This document shows positions 56,450 through 59,185 of a stretch of DNA of 64,000 bases, in pieces (position 1 is the first letter of the stretch; every line of letters starts with the position of its first letter). The DNA comes from Candidatus Allofournierella excrementigallinarum. GTDB lineage: Bacteria; Bacillota; Clostridia; Oscillospirales; Ruminococcaceae. Location of the stretch: positions 1 through 64,000 of the forward strand of contig DWXV01000059.1 of NCBI GenBank assembly GCA_019119025.1. Direction: 5' to 3'. The notes below the pieces were generated by a model that ran no database searches, was not told the origin of the DNA, and worked only from the letters and a program-made list of their open reading frames with translations. Both the position numbers and the translations under genes were made by a program.

Positions 56450-56478
56450 TTGACAAGGCTTTTCGCCGCCACTATAAT
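56450..56478 (+). promoter_or_regulatory. Consensus SigA promoter of the GNAT-hflX operon
   Basis: TTGACA (56450-56455), 17 bases, TATAAT (56473-56478): both hexamers and the spacing are perfect consensus, so strong constitutive expression is expected. Confidence 0.93.
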
Positions 56479-57119: not shown

Positions 57120-58379
57120 ATGAGCGAACAGATCACACAAAACGCCCCGCCGGTAAAGGTGCTGCTGCTGGGGCTGGACATGGGCCAGTTCGACGCCGAG
57201 CGCAGCATGGACGAGCTGGCGGCGCTGTGCGAAGCCAACAACATGGAGGCGGTGGCCAGCCTCCTCCAGAAAAAGGACGCCCCCGAGGCGGGCACCGTGC
57301 TGGGCGAGGGCAAGCTGGCCGAGGCGCGCCTTACCTGCGAAAATCTTGGCGCCGAAGCCGCCGTGTTCGACGGCGAGCTGTCCGGCAGCCAGCTGCGCAA
57401 CATCTCCGACGCGCTGGGCGTGGAGGTCATCGACCGCACCATGCTCATTCTGGAAATTTTCCGCAGCCGGGCGGTCACCGGCGAGGGCAAGGTGCAGACG
57501 GAGCTGGCCCTTCTGCGCTACCGCCTGCCGCGCCTTGCGGGGCTGGGCGAGGCCTTGAGCCGCCAGGGCGGCGGCGGCGGGGGCGGCGGCGGCGCGCGGC
57601 GCGGCGCCGGCGAGAGCAAGCTGGAATACGACCGCCGCCATGTGCGCCGGCGCATCGAGGCGCTGGAGCAAAAGCTGGCAGAGCTGGAAAAGCGCCGGGG
57701 CGAGAACCGCCGCGCCCGCCAGCGGGCGGGCACCCCGGTGGTGAGCCTGGTGGGCTACACCAACGTGGGCAAATCCAGCCTTTTGAACGCTTTGTGCGGC
57801 TCCGACGCGCTGGAGGCGGATATGCTTTTCGCCACGCTGGACCCCACCGCCCGCAAACTGACCCTGCCCAGCGGCCTGAACGTCGTCGCGGTGGACACGG
57901 TGGGCTTTGTGAGCCGCCTGCCCCACAAGCTGGTGGAGGCCTTCAAAAGCACTTTGGAGGAGGCCGCCTATTCCGATGTGATCGTGAAGGTGGCGGACGC
58001 CGCCGACAGCGAGCGGGAGGCCCAGCTGGAGGTGACCGACCAGGTGCTGGCGGAGCTGGGCTGCGGCGGCATCCCCCAGATCACCGTCTACAACAAGTGC
58101 GACAAGGCGGGGGCGGTGCCCTTCCAGCCGGGGGTGCTGCTCACCAGCGCCCGCACCGGCCGCGGGCTGGACGCCCTGCTGCAAAAGCTGGACGAAGCCC
58201 TTTCCGACCGGGTGCGGGCGGTGAAGATGCTGCTGCCCTACGACAAGCTCTCCCTGGCCGAGGCCATGCGCAGCCGGGGCAGCGTCACGGTGGAGGACTA
58301 CCGGGAAGACGGCGTCTGGTTCGAGGGCTTTGTCAAAAGCACCGACCTGCACCTCTATCTGCCCTATCTGGAACAATAA
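57120..58379 (+). CDS. hflX: Ribosome-associated GTPase HflX
   Basis: The 419-residue GTPase has the HflX N-terminal domain (AGTVLGEGKLAE, ENLGAEAAVFDGELSGSQLRN, DRTMLILEIF), a Gly-rich linker and the G domain with GYTNVGKSSLLN, DTVGFVSRLPH and NKCD. It splits stalled ribosomes. A run of nine glycines at about 151-159 is coded by GGC-type repeats and may vary in length. Start ATG follows TGAGGTG. It is the second gene after the consensus promoter at 56450. Confidence 0.95.
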   Translation: MSEQITQNAPPVKVLLLGLDMGQFDAERSMDELAALCEANNMEAVASLLQKKDAPEAGTVLGEGKLAEARLTCENLGAEAAVFDGELSGSQLRNISDALGVEVIDRTMLILEIFRSRAVTGEGKVQTELALLRYRLPRLAGLGEALSRQGGGGGGGGGARRGAGESKLEYDRRHVRRRIEALEQKLAELEKRRGENRRARQRAGTPVVSLVGYTNVGKSSLLNALCGSDALEADMLFATLDPTARKLTLPSGLNVVAVDTVGFVSRLPHKLVEAFKSTLEEAAYSDVIVKVADAADSEREAQLEVTDQVLAELGCGGIPQITVYNKCDKAGAVPFQPGVLLTSARTGRGLDALLQKLDEALSDRVRAVKMLLPYDKLSLAEAMRSRGSVTVEDYREDGVWFEGFVKSTDLHLYLPYLEQ

Positions 58380-58504
58380 GCGAACGGGGCCGCGGCGCAG
58401 CCGCGGTCCCGCCTTTCTTTATAATGCAACAGGACCCGCCTTGCGGCGGGTCCTGTTGCATAGAGGGGTGGGAAAGTATAAATAAGGTGAGAAAGCATTT
58501 TCAT
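58364..58504 (-). CDS. Possible leader peptide (46 residues)
   Basis: A leftward frame starts at ATG 58504-58502 and ends at TAG 58366-58364, overlapping the end of hflX. It begins MKMLSHLIYTFPPLYATG. It lies 20 bases into a transcript predicted from the promoter at 58532. A small hairpin (AGCAC/GTGCT) sits just before the ATG and a 17-bp hairpin falls inside the frame, and the ribosome binding site is weak. It may be a leader peptide, or the RNA may work without translation. Confidence 0.35.
   Translation of the reverse strand: MKMLSHLIYTFPPLYATGPAARRVLLHYKERRDRGCAAAPFAYCSR
58386..58420 (+). terminator. Terminator after hflX
   Basis: An 11-bp stem with one G-T pair (58386-58396 with 58400-58410), GCA loop, then GCCTTTCTTT. 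Confidence 0.75.
58424..58461. repeat. Perfect 17-bp inverted repeat
   Basis: Arms 58424-58440 and 58445-58461 are fully complementary around TTGC. No T-run follows on either strand, so a simple terminator role is doubtful; it lies within the possible leftward transcript. Confidence 0.8.
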
Positions 58505-58531
58505 GAGCACTCGTTGGGTGCTGTGGTTATT

Positions 58532-58559
58532 ATTATACGGGTTTCGCTTTATATGTCAA
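58532..58559 (-). promoter_or_regulatory. Consensus SigA promoter pointing leftward
   Basis: Read leftward: TTGACA (58554-58559), 16-base spacer, TATAAT (58532-58537). No annotated gene lies in this direction except the short frame at 58364, so it suggests a small RNA or leader. Confidence 0.75.
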
Positions 58560-58592
58560 ATCGAAAACCGGGGATTTTCTTTCTCATTTTTC

Positions 58593-58621
58593 TTTACAAT
58601 TCCTCTTTTTGTTTATATAAT
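58593..58621 (+). promoter_or_regulatory. SigA promoter of the Lrp gene
   Basis: TTTACA (58593-58598), 17-base spacer, TATAAT (58616-58621). A leader of about 110 bases precedes the ATG at 58739. Confidence 0.75.
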
Positions 58622-58738
58622 TAAGATAACCCCAAAATCTCCGCTCTGTTTTTTATTTTGTTAATTTTTACAGGCAAAACCCTTTAATTTATCAGTTTTT
58701 TATCACTATTGCCACTATGTCGTCGGGAGGGAGACACT

Positions 58739-59185
58739 ATGGACAAACTGGACAAAAAGATACTCGGCCTTTTGGCACAAAATGCAAGAATGTCGGTGAA
58801 AGAGATCGCGGAACACGTTTCGCTCACCAGCCCGGCGGTGTCCAGCCGCATCCACCGGATGGAAAAGGAGGGCATCATCGACGGCTACACGGTGCTGCTG
58901 AAAAGCCCCGAGAGCCGGCAGACGGTGAACGCCCTCATCAGCGTGTCGGTGGCCCCCGCCGGCCGGGAGGAATTTCTGGCGGCAGTGCACGCCGAGCGGC
59001 AGGTGACCCAGTGCTTCCACGTCACCGGCAGCCACAGCTACATCGTCAAGGTGGCCTGCGACACCATGCAGTCGCTGGAGCACCTCATCACCCGCTGCCA
59101 GCGCTCCGGCCCCACCAGCACCCAGATCATCCTGTCCACCCCGGTGGACCGCCAGCCCGACCCCATGGGCAGCCCGGTGCAATGA
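58739..59185 (+). CDS. Lrp/AsnC-family transcriptional regulator
   Basis: The 148-residue regulator starts MDKLDKKILGLLAQNARMSV, followed by the helix-turn-helix (EIAEHVSLTSPAVSSRIHRMEKEGII) and the ligand-binding RAM domain (about 65-140). Lrp-type proteins sense amino acids as octamers. ATG 58739 has GGGAGG at 8 bases. Targets may include the lipoprotein gene after it, by position only. Confidence 0.93.
   Translation: MDKLDKKILGLLAQNARMSVKEIAEHVSLTSPAVSSRIHRMEKEGIIDGYTVLLKSPESRQTVNALISVSVAPAGREEFLAAVHAERQVTQCFHVTGSHSYIVKVACDTMQSLEHLITRCQRSGPTSTQIILSTPVDRQPDPMGSPVQ

Follow-up and report, generated by a model that had tools for sequence, protein, structure and literature searches.

A predicted small RNA gene linked to a divergent Lrp/AsnC-family regulator gene in the Faecalibacterium clade

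Introduction

In the GcvA/GcvB system of enterobacteria, an sRNA gene and the gene of a regulator linked to amino acids are divergently oriented, and the RNA has an intrinsic terminator and a long, conserved single-stranded region for pairing. In the Firmicutes, sRNAs with a C-rich motif, RsaE/RoxS among them, expose that stretch and have no strict need for Hfq, while 6S RNA and Ms1 are abundant small RNAs that act through protein. Faecalibacterium and Gemmiger, two members of the clade considered here, belong to the dominant gut bacteria of healthy humans.

The locus described below resembles GcvA/GcvB in its arrangement, since both combine a regulator gene with a divergent sRNA, a conserved single-stranded stretch and a terminator. 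However, the regulator is of the Lrp/AsnC type rather than the LysR type, the putative seed is C-rich rather than GU-rich, and Hfq was not detected in the 12 RNA-bearing genomes searched; Rfam gave no sign of a sequence relation to GcvB. Like RsaE/RoxS, the predicted RNA is small and exposes a C-rich stretch able to cover G-rich Shine-Dalgarno sequences, but its sequence and architecture are different, with CCCACCCC lying inside a 19-nt invariant block. Small RNAs that act through protein, such as 6S and Ms1, would likewise show strong motif conservation, but the RNA here has one stem and an open stretch only, without their long open-duplex structure. No Rfam family scored above its gathering score and nothing credible appeared at E <= 10, RsaE and 6S included, and a literature search returned no paper describing the motif or any sRNA of the Faecalibacterium/Gemmiger clade. 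The predicted sRNA is a new, previously uncatalogued family of a known type. With a single RNA, a single regulator, type strains that can be cultured and a defined 19-nt element to mutate, this conserved sRNA, tied to a regulator in a clade without detected Hfq, would be a concrete and inexpensive starting point.

Results

Layout of the locus

The window is the whole stretch of DNA analysed, 64,000 nt of Candidatus Allofournierella excrementigallinarum (assembly GCA_019119025.1, contig DWXV01000059.1, positions 1-64,000, forward strand). We assigned the following features to the sRNA locus and its two neighbours:

57120..58379, plus strand: hflX, convergent with the sRNA; judged from neighbour comparison to be an optional neighbour outside the unit
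58364-58510, minus strand: open frame through the sRNA, 48 codons from GTG and 46 from ATG
58385..58411, no strand assigned: second hairpin, common to the hflX terminator and a possible back-up terminator of the sRNA; strong U-tract in both directions in sister species
58424..58461, minus strand: 17-bp hairpin with a perfect stem, from fold and covariation; the intrinsic terminator (A-tract/GC stem/U-tract) in relatives
58462..58480, minus strand: C-rich single-stranded motif UAUACUUUCCCACCCCUCU, invariant and presumed to be the functional element, from comparison and unpaired probability
58506..58522, minus strand: small, lineage-specific 5' hairpin, from the predicted fold
about 58524-58528, minus strand: predicted transcription start of the sRNA, placed from the promoter boxes
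58532..58537, minus strand: -10 box TATAAT of the sRNA promoter, exact match to consensus
58554..58559, minus strand: -35 box TTGACA of the sRNA promoter, exact match to consensus
58593..58621, plus strand: divergent lrp promoter, TTTACA-17-TATAAT, from the promoter scan
58739..59185, plus strand: Lrp/AsnC-family regulator of 148 aa, with HTH_AsnC-type and AsnC_trans_reg ligand-binding domains (Pfam)

We interpret 58532-58424 on the minus strand as the gene for a ~100-nt non-coding sRNA, a reading to which we assign a probability of about 0.93 on the basis of comparative sequence analysis. The comparisons reported below establish that this predicted gene has its own promoter, no conserved reading frame, an invariant unpaired 19-nt motif, a structurally selected hairpin and a single copy per genome, and that it is linked to, and co-occurs with, the divergent Lrp/AsnC gene. 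The latter, a key neighbour of the RNA, was absent from the original prediction.

Promoter, fold and terminator

The leftward consensus promoter of the original prediction, TTGACA-16-TATAAT, was confirmed as an exact 12/12 match on the minus strand of the window, and it recurs in about 100 related genomes. The region as a whole contains five promoter-like sites, compared with 0.6 +/- 0.7 in shuffles of the same region. Across the homologous loci, a sigma-A-type promoter scoring 10-12 of 12 was present in 98 of 98, 64 of them perfect, with a spacer of 16 nt in 89 of the 98; the best of 490 shuffled control sequences reached 10/12, and none scored higher. The predicted sRNA gene thus carries a dedicated promoter at every homologous locus, and the distance from its -10 box to the motif varies between 27 and 101 nt. 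Elsewhere in the window, a second perfect promoter, TTGACA-17-TATAAT, lies on the plus strand at 56450-56478; it either overlaps the start of the ORF ahead of hflX or lies just before that start.

Both hairpins previously described, one near the 5' end of the RNA and one a perfect 17-bp stem, appear in the predicted fold, with an open C-rich stretch between them. The minimum free energy of the window RNA, folded from about 58526, was -41.5 kcal/mol, compared with -19.1 +/- 2.9 kcal/mol in shuffles (z = -7.6), and the predicted transcripts of the 98 homologues have a median length of 101 nt. The 5' part of the unit is variable, its hairpin being missing or altered in Gemmiger and Faecalibacterium. 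The claim of two C-rich single-stranded stretches held in part: UAUACUUUCCCACCCCUCU is both conserved and unpaired, but CACCUU is not kept in relatives. The motif, a putative accessible seed, has a mean unpaired probability of 0.92 across the 98 predicted transcripts and does not vary at any base, including those at wobble positions, although this invariance is partly built in, since the homologous loci in named genomes were picked by exact match to the motif ASCERTAINMENT.

The terminator-like hairpin shows compensatory changes on both sides of the stem in 13 of 15 pairs, G-C to A-U exchanges among them, and 97% of its cells are paired. None of 500 shuffles did as well, slid column registers were 43-55% paired, and a gap-free subset was also run. 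These data point to a structured 3' terminator under selection. In most relatives the hairpin is a classic terminator, AAAAAGGCCCGC..GCGGGCCTTTTT, with a U-tract; in the genus to which the window belongs, erosion has affected the U-tract within the stem. Since the 17-bp hairpin of the window genome has no good U-tract, some read-through to the second hairpin (58385-58411) is possible, and this second hairpin may act as a back-up terminator in the genus.

Distribution in the clade

The unit, consisting of the promoter, a variable 5' part, invariant UAUACUUUCCCACCCCUCU and the terminator-like hairpin, is shared by about 100 genomes across the Faecalibacterium/Gemmiger/Fournierella/Ruthenibacterium/Anaerofilum/Pygmaiobacter group. 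A 191-base query matched sister-species loci whole and more distant genera of the family by the core only, namely TATACTTTCCCACCCCTCT plus the hairpin. When searched with at most one mismatch, TACTTTCCCACCCCTCT was found in 56 of 397 family genomes at one copy each, 53 of them exact. The motif occurs in Faecalibacterium prausnitzii, F. hattorii, F. gallinarum, Gemmiger formicilis, Fournierella massiliensis and Pygmaiobacter massiliensis, and also in Anaerofilum, Ruthenibacterium and Subdoligranulum sequences. Eight further motif loci without lrp, most of them in unrelated phyla, were set aside as chance matches. The covariance-model matches outside the clade (order and class search) are ordinary terminators without the motif, and none of those tested adjoins lrp.

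For a check free of the selection bias noted above, we started from lrp, an ortholog of which is present at E <= 4e-35 in 65 of the 397 family genomes. The exact 17-base core was found in 53 of these 65 (genome labels compared by hand) and in 0 of the 332 other genomes. The remaining lrp-bearing genomes include one with a single mismatch in the motif (G420), one with a one-base deletion in the C-rich motif (TAACTTTCCCACCCTCT, G309), one with a decayed motif and a retained hairpin (G102), one from which the RNA is gone completely, so that hflX and lrp abut (G287), and one whose contig breaks at the hairpin (G001). Seven lrp-bearing genomes have no copy, and six of these belong to a single genus in which lrp sits beside hflX with nothing between. 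This lrp-anchored distribution suggests an origin of the RNA between hflX and lrp in a single clade, or else its loss from the genus that lacks it, together with decay in a few lineages. Loci L331, L338 and L339 provide a natural loss/variant series of the sRNA (the deletion in G287, the one-base change in G309 and the decay in G102).

The divergent lrp gene and the optional hflX neighbour

Wherever a homologous locus extends far enough upstream (97 loci, hand count), the Lrp/AsnC gene lies divergent from the sRNA, at -205 to -311 relative to the motif; its protein scores below every NCBIfam equivalog cut-off. The two divergent -35 boxes are separated by 33 bp in 52 of the 97 loci and by 32-34 bp in 64; Gemmiger has a displaced lrp promoter. 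The interval between the divergent promoters contains a recurring (G)TAAAG / AAAG direct repeat spaced by roughly one helical turn, which is a candidate binding site for Lrp and was seen in the window (58540-58625) and in loci L013, L088, L101, L124 and L150. By our own count hflX is downstream in 48 of 100 loci, some of the remainder being truncated, and it is missing from Gemmiger loci with kilobases of downstream DNA and likewise from Pygmaiobacter loci.

Translation, antisense action or a DNA element

The original prediction had considered a regulatory RNA, a translated leader and an antisense RNA to hflX, and had proposed searching relatives for conserved structure or peptide. That search favored structure: about 100 genomes share the promoter, the motif and the hairpin, far more than chance would give, but the reading frame is not conserved. 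The 46-codon frame (48 from GTG) is real, and it is open both in the window and in sister loci L116/L004, as a leader peptide or small protein would have it. However, in 45 of the 98 homologues no frame carries an ORF across the motif (ATG, GTG or TTG starts inside the transcript), and the three frames through the motif are open in 33, 16 and 19 of the 98, none in a majority. The promoter-motif spacing of 27-101 nt is heedless of frame, the motif is unchanged at wobble positions, and neither a conserved start and frame nor a gene to attenuate downstream on the same strand was found. Translation of this RNA is therefore scarcely credible, and the leader proposal can be set aside.

The convergent orientation of the sRNA and hflX in the window is what an antisense or 3'-end regulator of hflX, or merely a convergent terminator, would show, and a read-through form of the RNA could extend to the hflX stop codon. 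Against this reading, the ~100-nt RNA and its main hairpin stop about 45 nt before that codon, and many homologous loci lack hflX while lrp is constant, making the antisense proposal very unlikely. We also considered whether the conserved sequence could be an operator of the lrp promoter acting as DNA, given that it is conserved and lies near a regulator gene. This is highly improbable, since the distance from motif to promoter varies, the hairpin changes are compensatory in the manner expected of RNA, and a dedicated promoter is retained at 98 of 98 loci. By comparison, the regulatory RNA proposal has in its favor a promoter that is conserved, an unpaired motif that is invariant and a hairpin that covaries.

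Base pairing or protein binding

Searches for targets of the motif gave null results. Its full complement, allowing G-U pairs, recurs nowhere in 14 genomes, and 15-mer complements with at most two mismatches were not above control in 12 genomes. GGGGTGGG ahead of an ATG was rarer than its mirror control (285 vs 348), and the matches were mostly inside genes, apart from two promoter-region elements in Fournierella and one lone start-region match (G024). The lrp mRNA start region was rejected as a target, as its complement is weaker than one in lrp's own coding region. A profile search for Hfq (PF17209), with E. coli and B. subtilis as positive controls, detected it in 0 of 12 RNA-bearing genomes (G000, G003, G004, G024, G029, G012, G022, G016, G035, G082, G198 and G192) and in 4 of 6 other family genomes. 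The predicted RNA thus does not fit an Hfq-dependent sRNA in the 12 genomes searched, and Hfq may have been lost across the RNA-bearing clade.

The null target searches and the absence of Hfq leave two modes of action, Hfq-free short-seed pairing with several mRNAs, which we put first, and protein binding, its main rival. In the former, Lrp would respond to an amino acid or related ligand and, bound in the 33-bp interval between the back-to-back promoters, regulate both its own gene and the sRNA. The RNA would then act in trans, without Hfq, by pairing its open CUUUCCCACCCCUCU with short G-rich mRNA stretches, usually at translation start regions, and lowering translation of those mRNAs. We infer Lrp control of the sRNA from position and fixed spacing only, and some lrp-bearing genomes have lost or never had the RNA, which counts against the model. 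This full model of an Hfq-independent, Lrp-controlled sRNA that pairs through its C-rich loop has, in our estimation, somewhat better than even odds.

Alternatively, the RNA could mainly serve as a sponge or scaffold that binds an RNA-binding protein, RNA polymerase or Lrp at the invariant motif. Such binding would be consistent with a 17-19-nt motif that stays nearly unchanged while everything else drifts, with the lack of a recurrent complement (12-14 genomes) or an enriched start-region core, and with the failure to detect Hfq. However, C-rich, Shine-Dalgarno-complementary open stretches are the usual pairing seeds in Firmicutes, no protein partner is indicated, and short-seed pairing with multiple targets would slip past complement searches. 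We consider protein binding unlikely but worth keeping in view; its more specific form is doubtful, in which a regulatory RNA coupled to Lrp, in hosts of the Faecalibacterium clade without Hfq, would bind Lrp or another protein instead of mRNAs through its invariant 17-19-nt loop.

Two observations from the target searches concern individual species. The start-region match, GGGGTGGGAA, immediately precedes the ATG of a gene resembling those of electron-transfer flavoproteins (L363, G024:C1:2440300-2441800, minus strand) and could be an sRNA target in that single species, although it was not reproduced in the sequences analysed. In addition, intergenic GGGGTGGGAAA elements (L284 and L288; L347 and L348), perhaps operators, are conserved between two Fournierella species, where they overlap two promoter regions, that of a PhoB-like response regulator and that of a membrane-protein gene, the latter with an inverted CCCACCC partner.
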